Shown piece by piece: positions 34,715 through 45,398 of a DNA stretch of 52,849 bases (positions are counted from its first letter, which is position 1; each line of letters starts with the position of its first letter). The DNA lies in the NCBI RefSeq assembly GCF_001939115.1, contig NZ_MQTZ01000028.1, positions 82,501 through 135,349 on the forward strand. The letters run 5' to 3'. The notes beneath the pieces were generated by a model. That model worked only from the letters and a program-made list of their open reading frames with translations. It ran no database searches and was not told the origin of the DNA. The DNA is from Leptolyngbya sp. 'hensonii' (lineage in GTDB: Bacteria > Cyanobacteriota > Cyanobacteriia > GCF-001939115). Both the position numbers and the translations under genes were made by a program.

Positions 34715-35119
34715 GCTGATAATCTCCTCACAATTAAATCTAAGCGATGGGTCATCATGCCCTTGTCGGTGAGGGATAGGGGGGACTCCCATATTCCTGC
34801 CTGATTCCAATGACATTTGCTATAGGTCTAATCTAAACAGTTTGTAGTGGGTTAAAAGAGGACGTTACCGTTTTAGCAACTGCATCTTTCTCGGGGCGAC
34901 AAAATTTTATTGCCCTCATGCTTCCTGATGGTTTTCTGGGCAAATACTTGTCACTCCAAATCAGCAAGTGTTAAATTGCGGCAATCTATTGATAATTTGT
35001 ACTAACAATGGTTTTGAAAATTGCTAAAGAACTGATGGGGTGACAAGTTTAGAGACTTTTAAAAAATATTGAAACACGTCAAGTTCTGTAGGAAATCTGT
35101 GAGGAGGGTGAGCATTGAT
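34715..35119. other. Divergent spacer between SIMPL gene and inverse-autotransporter gene
   Basis: A 405-bp AT-rich spacer. Apart from ribosome binding sites at both ends (GAGGAGA near 34723-34729 on the minus strand and GAGGAGGG at 35101-35108 on the plus strand) I see no gene, RNA or repeat. Confidence 0.5.
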
Positions 35120-37897
35120 ATGACGATCACAAGAGATGGAAGCCGTAATTTTAACTTGCGTGCAAGCCGTAATTTTTTCTCGGAAGTCAAATTGTCAGCC
35201 TTTGGCATGCGCTATCTGGGTTTGCTTGTGCTTGGAATTTTGTCCGCACCAGCGATCGCGCAAACGCCACTTTCCAAGACCAGTCCACCGTACATAGGGG
35301 CAACGACGGCTGGGGCTCAGGCTATAGGTTCGGTCAAGATGACGTCTTCCCTGGCCCTGCGAGAACTCTCCTCGGCGGTGACCCAGGCCACAGGGAAAGG
35401 AACACAGGTTCTGACGCAACAGGTCAGTGCCCAGGATCGGCAGATTGGACCGGAGGACAAGACCGTTCCCGGTCAGTATGATCTTCTGAATCTAACGGTG
35501 AATACTGGCTCACAGGCAACCCTGGACGGGCCAGTATCCAATGCTCAGACGGAATTTCTGCCAGCGCTCACTTTTGCAGTGGGCTATGGGAGTGGTCTGG
35601 TGACCACAGCACCCGGCGCGGCGGAACTGCTGGCTGTCAATGGGCCAACTCTTCCGGATGCTGATGCGGCGGCTCAAGCTGCTATCCTGGCCCAGGCCGA
35701 CTCTGCTGCAGCGCCTACGATCGAGTATCAGCCGCGACTGGGAGCCCGTTACACCAGTGAAGGATCGGGCTATGAGCAGGGCGTTACTAGCTTTGAAGGC
35801 TTTATTCCGATCGCCCAGAGTGCAGGGGAAAGCTTGACCTTTGTCGATGGTCGGCTCTTGCTACAGAATAATTCGGCTCTGGGGGCTAATGTTGTTCTCG
35901 GTCAACGGCTTTACTCCGCTTCAGAAGATCGGATCTATGGGTTCTATGTGGCCTATGACAACCGGGATACGGGTAGGAGCACCTTCAATCAGTTGGGGGT
36001 AGGGGTGGAGACCCTGGCTGAAGGTTTTGATGCTCGGGTGAACGCCTACTTCCCGATCGGAACGACCCGGAATCAGGTTGGTAGTTCGGTGTCAGGCGTT
36101 CGTTTTGTGGGGAATAATCTGGCTCTAACCAGTTCCCGTCAGTTTGAATCGGCGGCCACGGTGGTGGATGCTGAGGTGGGGACGGAAATCTTTCCGATCG
36201 GTGAAGAGGGAACGGTGCGGGGCTATCTGGGCGGATATTATCTCAATGCGCCGGGCAGTCCTGATACCTATGGCGGCAAGGTGCGGGTGGAAGCATTGCC
36301 AACCGATTTTCTCAATCTGGGGCTGATTGTGCAGACGGATGGCCTGTTTGATACTCGGGTCATTTTCAGTGTGGGAGCAACCTTCCCTGGAACGCGACCT
36401 TCCAGTAATGGCCCGATCTCACGGGTTTTGAATCGTATGGCTGGTCCGGTAGCCCGCCAGACCGCAATTGTCGTGGCTGACCCCTCGCGTCGGGGGCAGA
36501 CTGAAAGTGGAACGGACAGTCTGGCGGTTAATGCTCGTACAGGGCAGCTTTACACCTTCCTGCATGTGTCGTCGGGAGCTGGGGGGACTGGAACGGCGGA
36601 GCAGCCCTTTAGTACGGTGCAGCAAGCCTTGAATGCAGCTGGGGCCGGGGGCACAGATGTGATTTATGTGCGGGGCAGTGGCAATGAAGCCCTGGCTAAC
36701 CTCAATCTTCCTGGTGGGACCAGTCTGCTATTCAATAATGTGCAGCAGTTGACCCCTGACCCGATCGCGAACCTCAATAACCAGCGGGCCTTGCTGCCGT
36801 TGTTTGATTCCACCGCCAAATATACGCTGACGATTAATGGGCCGATTACCCTGGCCGGTAATAATTCTCTGTTGGCAGGCATCACGGCGACTCAGACGAT
36901 CACGGTCAGTGGTCAGAACAACACGTTGAGTCAGGTGACGGTGAATAACCCGGCGGGCATTGGGATCAATGTGACAGGGAACAACACCACCATTTCTCAA
37001 TCGACGGTGAATAATGCTGGCGGGGTTGGGATTCAGGCGGCTAATGTGAATGGTCTGACCCTGCAGGGCAATACGGTGACGAACAGCGGTGGGCGAGGGG
37101 TGAGCCTGAATCAGGTGACTGGCCAGGTGACGATCACAAACAACAATGTGAACGGGACAGGCGGGGTTCAGAACAGTGCCCTGGTGATTGAGAACAACTC
37201 CGGGAACGTCAATGCCACCATTACGGGGAACCAACTCCAGAACTCCACCAATAATGGTGCGGCGGTGGATCTGTCGGGAACGGCCACAGGGACGTTTAAT
37301 GTCTCGAACAACACGGTCAGTGGAAACCAGTTCAATGGCATTCTCTTCCAGTTGAGTAATAATGCACAGGCTACGGGAACCATTGCGAACAATATCCTCA
37401 ATAACAATGGCAACAACGCGATTCTGGCCAGAACGCTCAACGCCTCCCAGGGAACAGTCAATATTTTGAATAACACGGTGACGAACACGACTAACCGGGG
37501 AATTGTGGTGGAATCGGCGAATACCTCCCAGATTCAGGCCCTGATTCAGGGAAATACGGTGACGGGGAGTGGGATCGTGGGTCTGTTCCTGCGAGCAGGG
37601 GATACTTCTACGACGCTGGCTGCAGTTCGCCTGAATACATTGACCGGCAATTTTGGTGGGGGTGTTCCCGGCGCTACGGGGGATTTGGCGGCTGAAACGC
37701 TGATCCCGGCGGGTGCGGGCTCCCGGCTCTGTATCTCCAGGGGGGGGAATACGATCGGGCTGTTCACCCTCAATAATCGGGTAGGGAACACGCTGCAGTT
37801 GGAAACAGCTTCCCCTGCAGATGCGATTACCAGTCCAGTGAATAACGGCGGCACGGTGATCACACCAGTGGCCACAGGATTCTGTGGAATTCCCTAA
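35120..37897 (+). CDS. Inverse-autotransporter-like surface protein with beta-helix passenger
   Basis: The 925-residue product (ATG 35120, GAGGAGGG upstream) has a signal peptide with a long N-region, cleaved after APAIA near residue 47. Residues about 200-440 are beta-strand-rich with the layout of intimin/invasin-type inverse autotransporter barrels (ARYTSEGSGYEQG; FEGFIPIAQ; GFYVAYDNRD; GYLGGYYLN; IFSVGATFPG). From about 500 on the protein contains GTAEQPFSTVQQALNAA, the usual opening of a right-handed parallel beta-helix, then many Asn-rich NN.V/GN.V turns typical of pectate-lyase-like coils. It probably anchors in the outer membrane and displays the helix outside. Ligand unknown. The in-frame TTG at 35069 is less likely. 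Confidence 0.78.
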   Translation: MTITRDGSRNFNLRASRNFFSEVKLSAFGMRYLGLLVLGILSAPAIAQTPLSKTSPPYIGATTAGAQAIGSVKMTSSLALRELSSAVTQATGKGTQVLTQQVSAQDRQIGPEDKTVPGQYDLLNLTVNTGSQATLDGPVSNAQTEFLPALTFAVGYGSGLVTTAPGAAELLAVNGPTLPDADAAAQAAILAQADSAAAPTIEYQPRLGARYTSEGSGYEQGVTSFEGFIPIAQSAGESLTFVDGRLLLQNNSALGANVVLGQRLYSASEDRIYGFYVAYDNRDTGRSTFNQLGVGVETLAEGFDARVNAYFPIGTTRNQVGSSVSGVRFVGNNLALTSSRQFESAATVVDAEVGTEIFPIGEEGTVRGYLGGYYLNAPGSPDTYGGKVRVEALPTDFLNLGLIVQTDGLFDTRVIFSVGATFPGTRPSSNGPISRVLNRMAGPVARQTAIVVADPSRRGQTESGTDSLAVNARTGQLYTFLHVSSGAGGTGTAEQPFSTVQQALNAAGAGGTDVIYVRGSGNEALANLNLPGGTSLLFNNVQQLTPDPIANLNNQRALLPLFDSTAKYTLTINGPITLAGNNSLLAGITATQTITVSGQNNTLSQVTVNNPAGIGINVTGNNTTISQSTVNNAGGVGIQAANVNGLTLQGNTVTNSGGRGVSLNQVTGQVTITNNNVNGTGGVQNSALVIENNSGNVNATITGNQLQNSTNNGAAVDLSGTATGTFNVSNNTVSGNQFNGILFQLSNNAQATGTIANNILNNNGNNAILARTLNASQGTVNILNNTVTNTTNRGIVVESANTSQIQALIQGNTVTGSGIVGLFLRAGDTSTTLAAVRLNTLTGNFGGGVPGATGDLAAETLIPAGAGSRLCISRGGNTIGLFTLNNRVGNTLQLETASPADAITSPVNNGGTVITPVATGFCGIP

Positions 37898-37965: not shown

Positions 37966-39852
37966 ATGAGTGGCATTGTGGGTATCCTGAGCCTGAACGG
38001 GGCTCCGATCGCCCCCCCTCTGCTCCAGGCAATGGTTGAGGCTCTGGCCTATCGAGGGCCAGATGCCCAATCTTGTTGGAGTCAAAGTCGAATTGGGCTG
38101 GGGCATACCCTGTTGCGGACCACGCCTGAAGCGGCGGAGCAATATCCCCTCACCCTGGATGGTCAGGTGTGGATGGTGGCGGATGCGCGGATTGATGGCC
38201 GATCGGATCTGATCCGTCGGTTGCAAGCAGCGGGGCAACAGGTGCCTGCGGGGGTTCCGGATGGGGAGCTGATTCTGCGAGCCTATCAAGTTTGGCAACA
38301 GGATTGCCTATCCTACTTGCTGGGAGATTTTGCTTTTGCCATTTGGGATCAGCCTCGCCAGCGATTGTTTTGTGCCAGGGACCATTTTGGGGTGAAGCCC
38401 TTTTACTACGCCTGTAGCCAGGAGTGGTTGATTGTTAGTAATACGCTCAACTGCATTCGAGTACATCCGGCAGTGAGTTCGACTTTTTATGAACCGGCGA
38501 TCGCTGACTTCCTCCTCTCTGGCACCCTGCAGGACCCGGCCACCACCATCTTTGCGGACATTCGGCGGCTTCCAGCGGCCCATGGACTGACCTGGTCGGA
38601 GGGGCAGCTTACCGTACAGCCCTACTGGACGTTGCCACGGGAGGGTTACCTTCGCTATCGCCATCCCATGGATTACGTGGAGCAGTTTCGAGAATTGCTG
38701 GAGCAGGCGGTGAGCGATCGGCTTCGCACGGATCGGGTGGGCCTGTTGATGAGTGGGGGACTGGATTCCTCCTCGATCGCGGCGGTGGCCAAACAGATGC
38801 TTTCCCAGCAGTCTGCTGAGTTTGATCTGCGGGCCTATACGGCGGTTTACGATCAGCTGATTCCCGATCAGGAGCGCTACTATGCCAGTCTGGTGGCGGC
38901 GGCTCTCCAGATCCCAATTCAGTATCAGGTGGGAGAAGCCTATCCCCTCTTCCACCGCTGGGATCAGCCCGAACTTTTCCAGCCGGAACCCCTGCTCAGC
39001 CCGACCCTGGCCCTGACGATCGACCAGTATCGTCAGGTTGCAGCCCACAGCCGGGTGGCTCTGTCTGGGCATGGGGGGGATCCGGTCTTTTTCCCTTCCG
39101 GCACGTATTTTCTGGATCAGTTGCGGGCTGGCCAGATAGGCTCTTTAGTGACTGAAATTGGTCAGTATGTTACCTTGATGGGACGCTTTCCGCCCCTAGG
39201 GATTCGGACGCAACTGCGTCGCTGGCTGGGACCAGCAGGGGAGCCTGCTTTCCCCTATCCAGACTGGCTCCATCCTGACTTTGAAGCGCGGTTGCAACTC
39301 CGGGAGCGCTGGCGAAGTTTAGTCACGCCTGCTACTGGAGAGAAGTCCATTCGCGCTGATGCCTATCGGCTGTTGACAGAGGTGAGTTGGAGTTTTCTGT
39401 TTGAGAGTTTTGATCCTGATCGGACGGGTGTTCCTCTGGAGGTGCGTCATCCTTACTTCGATTTACGGTTGATGGAGTATCTATTGTCCATTCCACCGAT
39501 TCCCTGGTTTATTCACAAGGCGCTGCTGCGGATTGCCATGGGAGAGCTGTTGCCAGAGACCATCTGTAAGCGACCCAAAACCCATTTGGCGGGTGACCCG
39601 ATCGCCGTAATGCTGGAACGCTCCATAGGCCAGAACCTCCCCTCCCTGGAGTTGCCAGCGATTTTAGCGGAATATCTCGACCGAGATCGATTACCCCGTG
39701 TTACTGTAGGCGGAAAGAGTATAGGTCATTGGTGGGTGGATCTTCGTCCTTTAAGTCTCACCCAATGGATTGTCCAACAAAGATCTGTCCAACCAAGATC
39801 AGGGTATACAGGGAGAATTGGATCATTCAGTGATCAAATGTTAGAACATTGA
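37966..39852 (+). CDS. Asparagine-synthase-like lasso cyclase (C protein)
   Basis: The 628-residue protein has an N-terminal glutamine-amidotransferase-like domain and a C-terminal AsnB synthetase domain. True AsnB begins Met-Cys; here the protein begins MSGIVGIL, so the catalytic Cys2 is Ser and glutamine cannot be hydrolysed. The ATP pyrophosphatase loop SGGLDSSSIAA and the later SGHGGDPVF are intact. This combination is characteristic of lasso cyclases, which adenylate an Asp/Glu side chain of the precursor and join it to the new N-terminus. A lasso-type precursor follows 253 bp downstream. The last 25 residues are low complexity and overlap an AT-rich repeat. It could be another amide-forming AsnB relative, but the neighbours favour lasso. 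Confidence 0.88.
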   Translation: MSGIVGILSLNGAPIAPPLLQAMVEALAYRGPDAQSCWSQSRIGLGHTLLRTTPEAAEQYPLTLDGQVWMVADARIDGRSDLIRRLQAAGQQVPAGVPDGELILRAYQVWQQDCLSYLLGDFAFAIWDQPRQRLFCARDHFGVKPFYYACSQEWLIVSNTLNCIRVHPAVSSTFYEPAIADFLLSGTLQDPATTIFADIRRLPAAHGLTWSEGQLTVQPYWTLPREGYLRYRHPMDYVEQFRELLEQAVSDRLRTDRVGLLMSGGLDSSSIAAVAKQMLSQQSAEFDLRAYTAVYDQLIPDQERYYASLVAAALQIPIQYQVGEAYPLFHRWDQPELFQPEPLLSPTLALTIDQYRQVAAHSRVALSGHGGDPVFFPSGTYFLDQLRAGQIGSLVTEIGQYVTLMGRFPPLGIRTQLRRWLGPAGEPAFPYPDWLHPDFEARLQLRERWRSLVTPATGEKSIRADAYRLLTEVSWSFLFESFDPDRTGVPLEVRHPYFDLRLMEYLLSIPPIPWFIHKALLRIAMGELLPETICKRPKTHLAGDPIAVMLERSIGQNLPSLELPAILAEYLDRDRLPRVTVGGKSIGHWWVDLRPLSLTQWIVQQRSVQPRSGYTGRIGSFSDQMLEH

Positions 39853-40025
39853 GTGACAAAATATTAAAGGAGCCCGGATTAAATCATAAGTTATTAGACT
39901 GTAGGGCATTAACCTGATAGAACAGTAACTTTAAAGGAAGGATTAACTTTAATAAATCCTTGCAAGATTGAATCGCGGATTGTCAAAATCTGGATTATTA
40001 GAACATTAGATCACAGAATATTAAA
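39841..40025 (+). repeat. Degenerate 28-bp direct repeat pair upstream of RiPP precursor
   Basis: Copies at 39841-39868 (covering the cyclase stop) and 39998-40025 share about 23 of 28 positions, with the common core TTAGAACATT and AATATTAAA; they are 157 bp apart. The intervening DNA is AT-rich with further TTAGA/GTAG fragments. This could be a regulatory repeat or slippage debris. Confidence 0.6.
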
Positions 40026-40105
40026 CAATGGGGCGTTAGATTGATCGTAGGTCAATTCATTGCAAGACAGTAGATTGTAGATAACCGAGGAGACGTGCAG
40101 TGCTA

Positions 40106-40273
40106 ATGAAGGACATATCTCTCAAGCGGAACTATCAAAGCCCTAAATTATTGGTCTATGGTAGCATTCGTGAATTGACCCAAACCAGTTCGAAGTTTGG
40201 TGGATTGCAAGATACCTGCACTTCTAATCCATTTAAGAGTCAGGCGGGTGGTCCTCCGGCTTGTCCTCCTTAA
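40106..40273 (+). CDS. Lasso-type RiPP precursor peptide
   Basis: A 55-residue ORF. The leader has the lasso motif Y10..P13.L15...G19.....T25, the element bound by lasso recognition domains, and reads YQSPKLLVYGSIRELTQ. After the leader the only acidic residue is Asp36. Ring closure needs Asp/Glu at position 7-9, so the core must start at residue 28, 29 or 30; with Thr27 at the usual -2 site it starts at Ser29, giving an 8-residue ring (29-36) and a 19-residue tail ending in Pro55. Cys38 and Cys53 could form a disulfide. ATG 40106 has GAGGAGA 12 bp upstream; an in-frame GTG at 40100 has better spacing and may be the true start. Neighbours (cyclase, kinase, exporter) support the call. Mature structure is inferred. 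Confidence 0.87.
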   Translation: MKDISLKRNYQSPKLLVYGSIRELTQTSSKFGGLQDTCTSNPFKSQAGGPPACPP

Positions 40274-40309
40274 GATTGATGCGTATCTGGAGAATCAGAT
40301 AACGTTATT

Positions 40310-41248
40310 GTGGTGTTTTGTTATTCGGTCTATGGCCTGTACCTGCAATCCAATCAGCCTGTGCCCGGTCTGGAAGCAGTGCCAGGGGTTCCCAGGGTGG
40401 ATGTGCGGGTGGAGTTGGCACAAAACGCAACAATGGCGATCGAGGCTGTAGAGTTTGCATCCCCGATCAACCAGAATTCTTGGCGATTTAATTACCCCGA
40501 CGGCACAAAATTTATTGTGGATGCAGAAGGCACCGCTATCTGGGCCACCTGGATCAACCCGATGACGCTGGAGGATACCGCTACTTATCTTCTGGGTCCA
40601 ATTTTGGGTTTTCTGCTGCGGTTGCGGGGCGTGATCTGTTTACATGCCAGCGCGGTGGTTATGGGGCAGGGGGTGGCAGTGTTCGTCGGCCCCGCTGGAG
40701 CTGGTAAGTCAACCACGGCGGCTCTCTTTGCCCACCAGGGCGATCCAATTCTTTCCGATGATGTGGTGGCACTCCTGCCTCAGGAAGAGGCTTTTTGGGT
40801 GCAACCGGCCTATCCTTATTTGCGACTCTGGCCCTCTTCCGTGCAGTTGCTTTATGGGGCACCGGATGTGCTACCGCCTTTAACGCCTAACTGGGAGAAG
40901 TGTTATCTGGCCTTGACGCAGACGGACTATCGATTCCAGCAAGATCCTTTGCCCCTGCGTGTGATTTACCTCTTGAGGCCCAGACGGGATGACCTGATGG
41001 CCCCAGAGATTCAACCCGTTGCGGCTGCGGCTGCATTGGTGGATCTGATTGCCAATACCTATGGCAATAGCTTACTCGATAAGCCGATGCGAGCCATGGA
41101 ATTTCAGGGTCTGAGTCGCCTGGTGACCCAGATTCCGGTACGATGCCTGACGGCCCAGGCCGATCCACCTGACCTGTTTCAACTGTGTGATGCAGTCCGG
41201 GCTGATGTGGCTAGCCTGTCTGCTCCAGGATTTAATGTTGAAAGTTGA
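40310..41248 (+). CDS. HPr-kinase-like protein of RiPP cluster
   Basis: A 312-residue protein. LHASAVVM precedes the P-loop GPAGAGKSTTAAL, followed by ILSDDVVAL; this order is that of the HprK C-terminal domain. Small HprK-like kinases occur in paeninodin-type lasso clusters, where they phosphorylate the C-terminal Ser of the precursor. Here the precursor ends in Pro-Pro, so that role does not fit directly and another Ser/Thr or another target must be considered. The start is GTG 40310 (or GTG 40313), 36 bp after the precursor. The gene sits between the precursor and a methyltransferase. Confidence 0.85.
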   Translation: MVFCYSVYGLYLQSNQPVPGLEAVPGVPRVDVRVELAQNATMAIEAVEFASPINQNSWRFNYPDGTKFIVDAEGTAIWATWINPMTLEDTATYLLGPILGFLLRLRGVICLHASAVVMGQGVAVFVGPAGAGKSTTAALFAHQGDPILSDDVVALLPQEEAFWVQPAYPYLRLWPSSVQLLYGAPDVLPPLTPNWEKCYLALTQTDYRFQQDPLPLRVIYLLRPRRDDLMAPEIQPVAAAAALVDLIANTYGNSLLDKPMRAMEFQGLSRLVTQIPVRCLTAQADPPDLFQLCDAVRADVASLSAPGFNVES

Positions 41249-41260
41249 AATGTGAGCTGA

Positions 41261-42403
41261 ATGTATACCATCGCAGGTTACGGGGAAATGATCGCAGACG
41301 AGGGGCGTATGGGCCCTTACGTTCAGGCGTTGCGCCAAACAGTGAAACCGGGATCTGTGGTGCTGGATCTGGGGGCGGGCACCGGCATCTTTGCCTTTCT
41401 GGCCTGCCAAATGGGAGCCGAGCGGGTGTATGCGATCGAGCCAGGGGCCTGTATTCAGGTTGCCCGCCAGATGGCGCAAGCCAATGGCTATGCCGATCGG
41501 ATTGAGTTTATCCAGCAGCTCTCCACGGAGGTGACTCTGCCCCAGCCCGTGGATGTGATTATTTCCGACCTGCGGGGAATTCTGCCTCTATTTCAAACCC
41601 ACATTCCGGCCCTAGCCGATGCCCGTCATCGGTTTCTAGCTCCGGGTGGGGTGCTGATTCCGCAGCAGGACAGGCTCTGGGGTGCGATCGTCACCGCTCC
41701 TGAAGTCTATGACCCGCTGGTGCAGCCCTGGGAGAATCGCTACGGGCTGGACATGAACGCGGCCCGTCAGGTGATCACCCATGCCTGGTACAAGGCGAAC
41801 CTGAACGGGACGCATTGCCTGACGGAGCCCCAGCTTTGGGGAGAACTGGATTACCGGAACCTGGAACAGCCTGATCTGGCTGGCCCCTTAACCTGGACCC
41901 TGACCCGCTCTGGTACGGCCCATGGTCTTTGCCTCTGGTTTGAAACGACCCTGCTGGAAGGGATTGGCTTTTCCAATGCCCCGGATCAGCCGCCCCTGCT
42001 CTATGGTCAAGCTTTCTTTCCCTGGCCAACACCGGTGCAACTGGCGATCGGCGATCGGGTAGAGGTGACCCTGCGGGCGAACCTGGTCCGCAATGACTAC
42101 ATCTGGCGCTGGCAGACGCAGGTGCTGGCGCAGGAGACGGTAACCGCTCAGTTCAATCAGTCCACCTTCCAGAGCCATCCCCTGGCTCTGGCGGAATTGC
42201 ACCTGCAGGCCGACTCCCATCAGCCTGCCCTCAGCCTGAAGGGGCAGGTGATGCACCATATTCTGGGCTGGATGGATGGGGACACGGCCCTGGGAGAGAT
42301 CACCCAAAAGGCCCTGGTTGCCTTTCCAGATTATTTTGCCGCCTGGCAGGACGCCTTTGATCTTGTCGCCCAGGTCTCCCGTCTGTATAGTCGCCCAGCA
42401 TGA
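41261..42403 (+). CDS. PRMT-like SAM-dependent methyltransferase with C-terminal helical domain
   Basis: A 380-residue protein with the PRMT-type layout: an N-terminal helix, SAM motif VLDLGAGTGIFAFLACQMGA (34-53), VYAIEP (56-61), a Rossmann core and a C-terminal beta-barrel-like part. In true arginine methyltransferases two Glu form the double-E loop (SE.........E); here they are Asp103 and Gln112 (ISDLRGILPLFQ), so arginine methylation is doubtful. The last 60 residues (SLKGQVMHHILGWMDGDTAL and following) resemble a small winged-helix/PqqD-like domain, by eye only. It sits between the kinase-like gene and the exporter (ATGA overlap), suggesting that it modifies the precursor or a cluster product. 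Confidence 0.83.
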   Translation: MYTIAGYGEMIADEGRMGPYVQALRQTVKPGSVVLDLGAGTGIFAFLACQMGAERVYAIEPGACIQVARQMAQANGYADRIEFIQQLSTEVTLPQPVDVIISDLRGILPLFQTHIPALADARHRFLAPGGVLIPQQDRLWGAIVTAPEVYDPLVQPWENRYGLDMNAARQVITHAWYKANLNGTHCLTEPQLWGELDYRNLEQPDLAGPLTWTLTRSGTAHGLCLWFETTLLEGIGFSNAPDQPPLLYGQAFFPWPTPVQLAIGDRVEVTLRANLVRNDYIWRWQTQVLAQETVTAQFNQSTFQSHPLALAELHLQADSHQPALSLKGQVMHHILGWMDGDTALGEITQKALVAFPDYFAAWQDAFDLVAQVSRLYSRPA

Positions 42404-44220
42404 GCAATCTTCGTAGTTTCCTGGCCGATAAATTTCAGGCCGTCCTGGCTCAACTGCCCTATTTGCCTCGATCGTTTGCGCTGGTTTGGGCTGCCGCACC
42501 TGCCTGGACGGTTTGCTGGGCCGTGCTCCTGGTGATGCAGGGGCTGCTGCCCGTTGCCATTACCTACCTGAGCCGGATTCTGGTGAATAGCCTGGTGAGT
42601 ACGTTGCAAACCAGGCTGGGTTTGCAACAGACCCTGTTCCTCGTGGCCCTGATGGCCAGTTTAATGTTGCTGGCCGAACTGATGCGGGGGCTGGTTACCT
42701 GGGTGCGGACAGCCCAGGGAGAACTGGTGCGGGACCATATCAGCAATCTGGTGCATCAGCAGGCAGCCCGGGTGGATTTTGCCTTTTATGAATCGGCGGA
42801 GTATTACGATCGCCTCTACCGGGCGCAAAATGATGCCCGGCTGCGCCCCCTGACCCTGCTGGAGAATGGGGGCAGTCTGCTGCAGAATGCCATTACCCTG
42901 ATCGGGCTGGTGCTGGTGCTGTTGCCTTTTGGTCTCTGGCTGCCGATTGTTCTGCTGGTGAGTACTCTGCCTGCGTTTTATGTGGTGCTGCGTTATAGCG
43001 TTAAGCAGCATCGCTGGTGGGTGCGGTCTACCCCGGATGAGCGCCGGAGCTGGTATTACAACTGGCTGTTGACCGATCGATCTAATGCGGCTGAATTGCG
43101 GATTTTTGATCTGGGGGATCATTTCCAAACCACCTATCGGCAGGTTCGGGAAAAACTGCGGCTGGAGCGGTTGCAACTGGCCCGAAACCAGAGCCTGGCT
43201 GAGCTGGGATCTCGGGCTCTGGCCCTGTTGCTGATGGGGGTAACCCTGGCCTGGATGGTCTGGCGGGCGCTGCAGGGCAAAGCTACCCTTGGGGATCTGG
43301 CCCTGTTCTACCAGGCGTTCAGCCAGGGGCAGGAGGTGATGCGCTCCCTGTTACAGAATCTGGGGCAGCTCTACACCAACAGTCTTTTTCTCAGCAGTTT
43401 ATTTGAATTTCTCACCCTGGACCCCCAGGTGGCAGAGCCTGACCAGCCTCGTCCATTGCCCTTGCCCCTGCAGGAGGGGATTCGGTTTCGGGATGTCACT
43501 TTCTCCTATCCGGGGAGTGATCGGCTGACCCTGCAGAATTTTAACTTGTTGTTTCCCGCCAGGAAAATCATTGCTATCGTCGGCAACAATGGCGCTGGGA
43601 AGAGTACCCTGATTAAACTGATCTGTCGCCTTTACGACCCGCAAAAGGGGGCGATCGAGCTAGATGGAATCGATCTGCGGCAGTTTGCCCTCAAAGATTT
43701 GCGTCAAATCATTACAGTCTTATTCCAGGAACCGGTTGAGTACAGTACAACTGCGGCAGAAAACATTGCACTGAGTTCTCTCATGGCGGAACCGAACCGG
43801 TCTGATATTGTGTTGGCGGCAGAAGCAGCCGGAGCGGATGAGCCCATCGTCCGACTGCCAGAAGGATACGACACCCTGTTGGGCAAGTGGTTTGGCGGCG
43901 CTGATCTGAGCACGGGCGAATGGCAGCGGCTGGCTCTGGCCAGGGCCTTTCTGCGGCAGTCGCCGATCGTCATTCTGGACGAGCCGACCAGTGCGATGGA
44001 TTCCTGGGCTGAGGCGGACTGGCTGGATCGCTTTCGTGCGCTGGTTGCTGGCCGGATGGCGATCGTCATTACCCACCGTTTTACGACGGCCATGCGGGCG
44101 GACATGATTCATGTCATGGTGGCAGGCCAGGTGATTGAGTCGGGTCGCCATGAAGACTTGCTGGCTCTGGAGGGTCACTATGCCCAGTCCTGGAAAATGC
44201 AGATGCAGGAAATCAAATGA
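42400..44220 (+). CDS. ABC transporter with fused membrane and ATPase domains, probable RiPP exporter
   Basis: A 606-residue half-transporter: about six membrane segments (residues 25-320) and an ATPase domain with GNNGAGKST, an LSTGEWQRLALARAF signature and IVILDEPTSAMD. No N-terminal C39 peptidase domain is present, so it does not cleave a double-Gly leader. It corresponds to the D protein of lasso clusters, exporting the mature peptide and giving self-protection. It starts at ATG 42400 in the stop of the methyltransferase gene and overlaps the next gene by ATGA. Substrate assignment rests on context. Confidence 0.88.
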   Translation: MSNLRSFLADKFQAVLAQLPYLPRSFALVWAAAPAWTVCWAVLLVMQGLLPVAITYLSRILVNSLVSTLQTRLGLQQTLFLVALMASLMLLAELMRGLVTWVRTAQGELVRDHISNLVHQQAARVDFAFYESAEYYDRLYRAQNDARLRPLTLLENGGSLLQNAITLIGLVLVLLPFGLWLPIVLLVSTLPAFYVVLRYSVKQHRWWVRSTPDERRSWYYNWLLTDRSNAAELRIFDLGDHFQTTYRQVREKLRLERLQLARNQSLAELGSRALALLLMGVTLAWMVWRALQGKATLGDLALFYQAFSQGQEVMRSLLQNLGQLYTNSLFLSSLFEFLTLDPQVAEPDQPRPLPLPLQEGIRFRDVTFSYPGSDRLTLQNFNLLFPARKIIAIVGNNGAGKSTLIKLICRLYDPQKGAIELDGIDLRQFALKDLRQIITVLFQEPVEYSTTAAENIALSSLMAEPNRSDIVLAAEAAGADEPIVRLPEGYDTLLGKWFGGADLSTGEWQRLALARAFLRQSPIVILDEPTSAMDSWAEADWLDRFRALVAGRMAIVITHRFTTAMRADMIHVMVAGQVIESGRHEDLLALEGHYAQSWKMQMQEIK

Positions 44221-45398
44221 TGATGGACGTGTTACCGGCAGCAATTACCTCTGAGGATTCCACCCGGCAGTGGGTGATTCGTTGCCTGCAGGGACGATTG
44301 GCCCCGCAAACCCTGGCCGCCACCCGCTACCTGCTGGCCCAGTCCAATCTGGATTGGAATCGGTTTCTGCAACTGGCCCAGGGAGAAGCGGTGGCCCCCC
44401 TGCTGTTTCAAGCCCTGCGGGGGCAGGCGATCGTCCCTGCCTGGGTGGAGGCTCAATTGGAGGCAGCCTATTACCGGAATGCCTGCCGCAATGCTCTCCT
44501 GCTGCATGAACTGGCTGCTGTTTTGCAGGCCCTGGCTAGGGTGGGGATTGAGGTGATTGTGCTGAAAGGGGTAGCCCTGGCGGAGCTGGTGTATCGGGAT
44601 ATTGGGGTGCGACCCATGAGCGATCTGGACCTGTTGATCCGATCGACCGATGTGGGCCGCGCCCGACACATCCTGGCAGACCTGGGTTACACTCCCCTGG
44701 ACCTGGAGATGCAGGCCGGATATACAGAAGAATTCCGCAATGAGGCCACTTTTGGCAAGCAGGGGCTAACGGAGATTTGTATTGATCTCCACTGGCGGCT
44801 GTTTAGCCCACTCTATTACCAGCGACGGTTGACGGCTGATTGGTTCTGGCAGACCCGGTTGCCGATTCAGATTAATCAGGTGACGGCCTTTGCCTTTGGC
44901 CCAGAAGCCCAATTACTGCATCTGTGCGCCCACCTCTCCCTGCACCACCAGGGAGAGGGGTTACTCTGGCAGCACGATATTGCTGAAGTCCTGCTTTATT
45001 ACCGACAGCAAATTGATTGGACTGTGCTGTTGCAGCAGGCCCGGACTTTTGACCTGGTGCTTTCGCTGCAACAGGTGCTGCTATCGGTGACCCAGAACTG
45101 GGATCTGACCCTGCCACCGGAGGTCTGGCAGGGGTTGCAGGATCTCAGTCCCTCCCCCAGGGAGGTGAGTGTGCTGGGCTGGCTGCGGGCTCCTCATCTG
45201 AGAAGTAGCCTGCGCTGTTTCCTGGCCGACTTATCGGTTGCAGCGGGCTGGCGTGAACGATTGCACCTGATGTGGAATATGCTGTTTCCCACGCGGGCTT
45301 ATATGCAACGCCGCTATCAGATTACCCATCCGCTGCTGATTCCTCTCTACTATACCTATCGGGTGCTGCTGGGCCTGCGGCGAGAATCCAGAGAGTGA
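44217..45398 (+). CDS. Nucleotidyltransferase-fold protein of RiPP cluster (NTP_transf_5-like)
   Basis: The 393-residue protein contains IEVIVLKGVALAELVY and RPMSDLDLLIR, the motif pair of the uncharacterised nucleotidyltransferase family that recurs beside HprK-like kinases in lasso clusters. DLD supplies the metal-binding Asp residues. The C-terminal part is helical (ALLLHELAAVL and similar). Its reaction is unknown; nucleotidylation or glycosylation-linked tailoring of the peptide has been suggested for relatives, but this is not shown. It starts at ATG 44217 in the exporter stop. It is the last gene of the plus-strand cluster and ends 5 bp from the convergent gene. Confidence 0.83.
   Translation: MMMDVLPAAITSEDSTRQWVIRCLQGRLAPQTLAATRYLLAQSNLDWNRFLQLAQGEAVAPLLFQALRGQAIVPAWVEAQLEAAYYRNACRNALLLHELAAVLQALARVGIEVIVLKGVALAELVYRDIGVRPMSDLDLLIRSTDVGRARHILADLGYTPLDLEMQAGYTEEFRNEATFGKQGLTEICIDLHWRLFSPLYYQRRLTADWFWQTRLPIQINQVTAFAFGPEAQLLHLCAHLSLHHQGEGLLWQHDIAEVLLYYRQQIDWTVLLQQARTFDLVLSLQQVLLSVTQNWDLTLPPEVWQGLQDLSPSPREVSVLGWLRAPHLRSSLRCFLADLSVAAGWRERLHLMWNMLFPTRAYMQRRYQITHPLLIPLYYTYRVLLGLRRESRE

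Follow-up and report, generated by a model that had tools for sequence, protein, structure and literature searches.

A lasso peptide cluster of Leptolyngbya sp. 'hensonii' and a distant B1-B2 pair as one probable pathway

The stretch of DNA analyzed here, called the window, covers 52,849 nucleotides of Leptolyngbya sp. 'hensonii' (G000:C28:82501-135349, contig NZ_MQTZ01000028.1; assembly of 5.94 Mb, 99.98% complete). It carries a gene cluster for a lasso peptide, one of the ribosomally synthesized and post-translationally modified peptides (RiPPs), and this cluster encodes neither B1, the protein with the RiPP recognition element (RRE), nor B2, the transglutaminase-like leader peptidase. A B1-B2 pair is encoded on another contig, C60, and very probably acts in trans on the window cluster, so that one lasso pathway is encoded at two places. 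An earlier reading of the window, made from the sequence only, had proposed that B1 and B2 might act from elsewhere; the C60 pair, together with the failure to find a competing second lasso system, supports that proposal. The genes, their families, their conserved catalytic residues and the finding of no other matching set in the genome are observations; the joint working of the two loci, the order of the steps and the product are inferred. Most likely, the pathway is ordinary in mechanism and unusual in layout, and the alarm over missing genes was justified as an observation.

Two loci of a candidate lasso pathway

Six open reading frames (ORFs) make up the window cluster, all on the plus strand, open and set close together (Table 1). 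The co-location of a cyclase, a precursor, a kinase, a methyltransferase, an exporter and a nucleotidyltransferase was borne out by the ORFs and by their families. The same holds for the lack of a B2 and of a stand-alone B1: genome-wide searches with PF13471 (B2) and PF05402 (PqqD) gave no match in the window or on the rest of contig C28. Because this contig extends 120 kb upstream of the cyclase, the absence is not due to a contig cut, and loss of the two genes through a contig end is ruled out. No peptidase domain was found in the ABC exporter (Pfam/NCBIfam), and a scan for promoters and terminators gave matches below chance expectation.

The genome-wide searches, which the sequence-only reading had proposed, located the one B2 of the genome at C60:31535-31855 and the one strong B1 at C60:31944-32144. 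The genome thus does possess a peptidase, the absence of which, together with the lack of a product mass, had been named as an argument against a lasso product. The two genes are adjacent and their ORFs overlap, the start of B2 lying inside the end of B1. An AGGAGG site precedes the ATGATG of B1, a hydantoinase gene lies upstream of the pair, and pdxH starts a few bases after B2. The guanine-cytosine content of the pair (0.54) is like that of the window. No cyclase, precursor or leader motif, or kinase was found in the roughly 9 kb flanking the pair on each side (20-kb stretch). C60 B2 scores 97 bits against NF033537, 'lasso peptide biosynthesis B2' (cut-off 33), and no variation is seen at its Cys79 and His113 among 64 homologues. 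The model of C60 B1 is confident and displays the full beta3-alpha3 fold of an RRE. Among solved structures, it best matches TbiB1 (TM 0.77) and the lasso B1 in 6jx3, both of them with leader bound.

Another PqqD match, on contig C11 (C11:1306-1494), was rejected as B1: it is far weaker (E = 5e-9), and its neighbors are ATP-grasp-like and decarboxylase-like genes. In this set (L012:1228-6077, G000:C11), the unrelated PqqD-like gene is followed by genes for an ATP-grasp-like protein, a pyridoxal phosphate decarboxylase-like protein and a large membrane protein. By eye, with PqqD alone tested, it may be a further operon for modifying peptides or amino acids.

In total, the genome holds just one leader, one cyclase and one B1-B2 pair of the lasso type. 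NF033521, the lasso leader domain, has a single match in the whole genome, at window positions 40133-40201, and the precursor passes its cut-off (19.6 against 19). In the cyclase, the SGGLDSS ATP motif is kept (S263, G264, G265, D267 and S268 in 98-100% of 85 aligned relatives), and the N-terminus, MSGIVGIL, is without the Cys2 of glutamine-hydrolyzing enzymes. Two further asparagine-synthetase-like proteins of the genome start with MCGI and keep the glutaminase Cys2; their surroundings showed no lasso genes. A second lasso system as owner of the C60 pair was sought in the genome by cyclase, leader and neighborhood, and none was found.

The nearest cyclases, 50-52% identical, lie in intact lasso clusters. 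The three highest-scoring ones are those of L089 (620 bits), L090 (607 bits) and L092 (603 bits), with identities of 52, 50 and 51%, respectively. The same three loci hold the B1s nearest to C60 B1, which is 74% identical to the B1 of L089 and of L092 and 63% identical to that of L090. Loci with a higher B1 score also tend to have a higher cyclase score (Spearman 0.72, 70 loci).

Several observations weigh against a joint pathway. C28 and C60 are separate contigs of a 77-contig draft assembly. The cyclase and the precursor both score below curated NCBIfam cut-offs (388.6 bits against 525 for NF033535; 28.3 bits against 33 for NF033528). The correlation between B2 and cyclase scores is not significant (0.19, p = 0.13), and C60 B2 ranks differently from B1, its best matches including other cyanobacterial lasso subfamilies. 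C60 B2 may therefore have a different history or have been exchanged, and it is the weakest link. In the B2 tree, C60 falls among other cyanobacterial clusters, with a long branch as its nearest partner; the B1 tree had too few columns to be resolved. The C60 pair could serve another, undetected pathway, with the window cluster using unrelated proteins. The mismatch between the histories of B2 and the window cyclase would agree with this, and a precursor without a standard leader would escape the leader-domain search. However, with a B1 congruent with the window cyclase and no further lasso-type cyclase or recognizable leader in the genome, such an arrangement is very improbable.

In the proposed two-locus pathway, C60 B1 would bind the YxxP leader, and the kinase would phosphorylate a Ser/Thr near the C-terminus of the core, for which Ser19 in the K-S motif is the probable site. 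The peptide would also receive a methyl from the methyltransferase. C60 B2 would cleave after Thr(-2)-x(-1), and the cyclase would adenylate the acceptor Asp and then close the ring. The nucleotidyltransferase-like protein would decorate the phosphate, and the ABC protein would export the product. The kinase is weakly related to HprK (TIGR04352, E = 1e-8), and its H109, K130, D147 and D148 (numbering of the aligned stretch) are kept in 94-100% of 74 relatives. Mutation has established the need for such a His-Lys-Asp-Asp set in lasso kinases (PMC9266682). A K/R-S/T near the C-terminus is common to the precursors of the subfamily, and Ser19 of the K-S motif is the likely kinase site, judging by these motifs. 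By analogy with the pseudomycoidin nucleotidyltransferase PsmN, taken as the model for phosphate decoration (PMC9266682), the window enzyme may act on the phosphate.

Table 1. Genes of the window cluster, parts of the precursor and the B1-B2 pair on contig C60
Feature	Position	Strand	Basis
Lasso macrolactam cyclase (asparagine-synthetase-like, 628 aa)	37966..39852	+	Best NCBIfam match NF033535
Precursor peptide, MLMKDISLKRNYQSPKLLVYGSIRELTQ followed by TSSKFGGLQDTCTSNPFKSQAGGPPACPP	40100..40273	+	Sole NF033521 leader of the genome
Leader MLMKDISLKRNYQSPKLLVYGSIRELTQ, with putative B1-binding motif Y-Q-S-P and Thr at -2	40100..40183	+	Fits Y..P.L...G....T of relatives
Predicted core TSSKFGGLQDTCTSNPFKSQAGGPPACPP, by the Thr(-2) rule	40184..40270	+	Acceptor Asp10 at 40211-40213, Ser19 at 40238-40240, two Cys
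HprK-like lasso kinase	40310..41248	+	His-Lys-Asp-Asp set, TIGR04352
PRMT-fold SAM methyltransferase with C-terminal three-helix tail	41261..42403	+	Sequence, fold, AlphaFold model
MsbA-type ABC exporter	42400..44220	+	Pfam/NCBIfam
NTP_transf_5 nucleotidyltransferase-like protein	44217..45398	+	PF14907 E = 2.3e-56
B1 (RRE)	about C60:31932-32213	-	PqqD PF05402 E = 1e-16
B2 transglutaminase-like leader peptidase	about C60:31526-31954	-	PF13471 E = 4e-24, NF033537

Upstream of the cluster, a protein of 942 residues containing parallel beta-helix repeats is encoded at window positions 35069-37897, ending 68 bases before the cyclase.

The methyltransferase and its C-terminal tail

The window methyltransferase has the fold of protein arginine methyltransferases (PRMTs), a domain binding S-adenosylmethionine (SAM) plus a beta-barrel. 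Pfam and NCBIfam identify the SAM-binding domain and PRMT_C (49.6 bits), PRMT2 and PRMT6 are the nearest by sequence (PRMT2, E = 1.6e-30), and Foldseek returns PRMT2, PRMT6 and PRMT8 with E down to 4e-29. The AlphaFold model has a pLDDT of 93.5. In PRMTs, arginine is bound by the two glutamates of a double-Glu loop; a THW loop is also characteristic. Here, the double-Glu loop reads SDLRGILPLFQ, with D103 (D in 25 of 30 relatives) and Q112 (Q, E, G and others in the 30 relatives), and the THW loop is replaced by LLY. Because the two loops are not kept, arginine methylation by this enzyme would be unlikely.

The methyltransferase ends in a tail that the sequence-only reading had called PqqD-like and to which it had assigned, as an alternative to trans supply, the role of the RRE. 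An RRE is defined by its beta3-alpha3 order (PMC12710340). The comparison of the C-terminus with RREs, suggested by that same reading, did not reveal this fold: in the model, the tail (residues 326-376) consists of helices 326-337, 344-354 and 362-376 only, with no beta-sheet. The tail does contain a helical stretch, MDG..sL.eIA..l...FP, like the helical half of PqqD, and its hhalign alignment with B1 lies slightly above the ten column-shuffled controls listed, over 27 columns only. Yet the probability of this alignment is 5%, and no Pfam PqqD match was obtained for the methyltransferase at E < 0.1. Moreover, many relatives carry a B1 plus the same tailed methyltransferase, and a genuine B1 with the RRE fold is present on C60. 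The RRE role of the tail was rejected on its fold and on the co-occurrence with B1; that the tail replaces B1 is hardly credible. Nor is the methyltransferase an unusual addition to the cluster, as had been supposed, since the gene order of relatives makes it a regular member of the subfamily.

Split layouts and ring size among relatives

Leaving weak similarities aside, about 11 of 390 cyanobacterial genomes have the methyltransferase. Nearly all of these loci contain a lasso kinase, and most contain an exporter, a nucleotidyltransferase (NT), B1, B2 and a cyclase. Scanning of genome contigs with the cyclase as query yielded 80 loci, and the usual order in relatives is B1-B2-cyclase-precursor-kinase-methyltransferase-(ABC)-NT. 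Among 49 evaluable subfamily loci, 34 have B1 and B2 nearby, six are without B2, one is without B1 and eight, the window included, are without both. When ten B2-less loci were searched genome-wide, nine had a B2 elsewhere in the genome.

For example, in G046, a single complete chromosome of 4,724,791 bases, B1 lies beside the cyclase and B2 lies 930 kb away, next to a second B1 and a nucleotidyltransferase. This nucleotidyltransferase-B2-B1 trio, at L087:8872-10450 (G046:C1, near 3.207 Mb), has no cyclase with it. The cluster of G046 also has a second HprK-like kinase (L047:10523-13624); the adjoining stretch resembles, by eye, a phytanoyl-CoA dioxygenase, a possible hydroxylase. ESFC-1 has a lone B2 3.7 Mb from the cluster. 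In a Ca. Korobacter metagenome-assembled genome, an orphan B1-B2 lies about 360 kb from the cyclase, apparently on the same contig, and in Spirulina CS-785/01 an orphan B1-B2 is found inside a 146-kb contig, apart from the cyclase. The Spirulina methyltransferase homologue (L046:9795-10757, G314) has an internal stop and lies on a contig separate from both the cyclase and B1-B2; these scattered genes are a possible decayed version. Some remote B2 genes adjoin a cyclase of their own (L202, L208 and L209), so trans supply is not claimable for every genome. On two further contigs, L204 (8.1 kb) and L207 (10.2 kb), B1-B2 and a kinase, in L204 also a nucleotidyltransferase, occur with no cyclase in the stretch. 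These two genomes have a cyclase locus without B2, and partial clusters may have moved together.

A rearrangement that split off B1 and B2 might have left the window cluster as a decaying remnant without a product. Compared with the commonest gene order, the split has the look of a derived state, the core has an unusual ten-residue extension after the K-S motif, and a split genome, that of Spirulina, has the interrupted methyltransferase. But all eight ORFs, six in the window and two on C60, are open, the catalytic motifs are intact where checked and several lineages show the split state. Decay of the window cluster is improbable. There is even less to be said for B1 and B2 being dispensable, the product being made without a dedicated leader peptidase like pseudomycoidin in a heterologous host. 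The title of Zyubko 2019 (cited in PMC9266682) announces efficient in vivo synthesis of pseudomycoidin without leader and leader peptidase, and pseudomycoidin likewise comes with a kinase and a nucleotidyltransferase. The Leptolyngbya genome, however, retains a B1-B2 with conserved catalytic residues, and B2 is present in nearly all relatives checked, which makes dispensability very improbable. Supply in trans from C60 is thus the preferred reading of the window cluster.

The precursor starts at GTG 40100 or ATG 40106, with GAGGAG at 40088, and has a YxxP leader with Thr(-2) (YQSP...LTQ). Under the Thr(-2) rule, the sole acidic core residue falls at +10, or at +9 if cleavage takes place one residue later. 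The calculated monoisotopic mass is 2859.296 for the 29-residue core with lactam and disulfide, to which a phosphate would add 79.966 and a methyl 14.016, and 2758.248 for a core that starts at Ser2. Natural lasso rings are given as 7-9 residues, and in the literature searched a ten-residue ring was reported only for an in vitro fuscanodin/fusilassin analogue (PMC8498205). Of 63 subfamily precursors, counted from Thr(-2) and from position 7 onwards, 36 have their first acidic residue at position 9, 15 have it at position 8 and nine at position 10. Acceptor Asp residues at +10 (window 40184-40213, L047, L089, L091, L092, L095, L101, L103, L124, L220 and L228) are only methyltransferase-linked: they occur in nine of about 22 methyltransferase-linked precursors of this set versus none of about 41 others (Fisher p = 2e-5, post hoc and uncorrected for relatedness). 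Genomes from the same phylum as L103 add two more +10 precursors, one of which lies on the other side of the methyltransferase gene. A +10 Asp would give a ten-residue ring unless the leader cut shifts one residue later; with that shift, the +10 cases become nine-residue rings, and five of the nine would start with Ser. It is conceivable, although rather unlikely, that the methyltransferase-linked precursors encode natural ten-residue rings, with B1/B2 often uncoupled and a PRMT-fold enzyme without arginine specificity modifying a new site. In the window core, K18-S19 is followed by ten residues, QAGGPPACPP (40241-40270), not seen in relatives. This extension gives the core two cysteines and a possible disulfide.

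Significance and known systems

Mining rules that demand an adjacent precursor, B1, B2 and cyclase would discard the window and about one third of the evaluable subfamily loci. The split layout points to B1/B2 being able to work for a cluster in trans, and a refactored heterologous operon must include the distant pair. Attention is also drawn to a recurrent, uncharacterized PRMT-fold tailoring enzyme and to an acceptor Asp beyond the ring sizes known so far. Three features merit further study: the split that recurs among relatives, the PRMT-fold enzyme and the +10 acceptor, which is the more novel. An open-access literature search found no lasso B1/B2 encoded in trans and no PRMT-like lasso methyltransferase, which is weak evidence.

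Maturation enzymes encoded away from their cluster are known in other peptides. The citrulassin PAD, for example, is encoded outside its cluster. Unclustered lanthipeptide proteases are another case (PMC8960859). Compared with both, the displaced genes here are those of a lasso recognition protein and leader peptidase.

SAM-dependent methyltransferases also occur in other lasso clusters: StspM and LasF act on the C-terminal carboxyl, and LihM is of the PIMT type (aspartimide). The window enzyme differs from these by its PRMT fold with a beta-barrel and by its three-helix tail.

The likeness of the kinase and nucleotidyltransferase to paeninodin-type clusters, pointed out in the sequence-only reading, is real. 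The paeninodin and pseudomycoidin systems (PadeK/ThcoK, PsmN) share the HprK-like H-K-D-D kinase, the NTP transferase, separate B1 and B2 proteins and an MsbA-like exporter. In those systems, the phosphorylated Ser is the last residue, whereas the window core ends in ACPP and the Ser of its K-S motif is internal, with ten residues after it. The window differs further by the additional PRMT-fold methyltransferase and by B1/B2 being outside the cluster.

The nearest systems are the kinase/methyltransferase/nucleotidyltransferase lasso clusters of cyanobacteria and Acidobacteria, uncharacterized as far as found. Those of Argonema antarcticum (L092), Phormidium LEGE 05292 (L090) and an uncultured cyanobacterium (L089) have the cyclase, the precursor leader, the kinase, the PRMT-like methyltransferase and the nucleotidyltransferase in the same order as the window. 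In these three, however, B1-B2 lies directly upstream of the cyclase, whereas the pair of the window cluster is on another contig.

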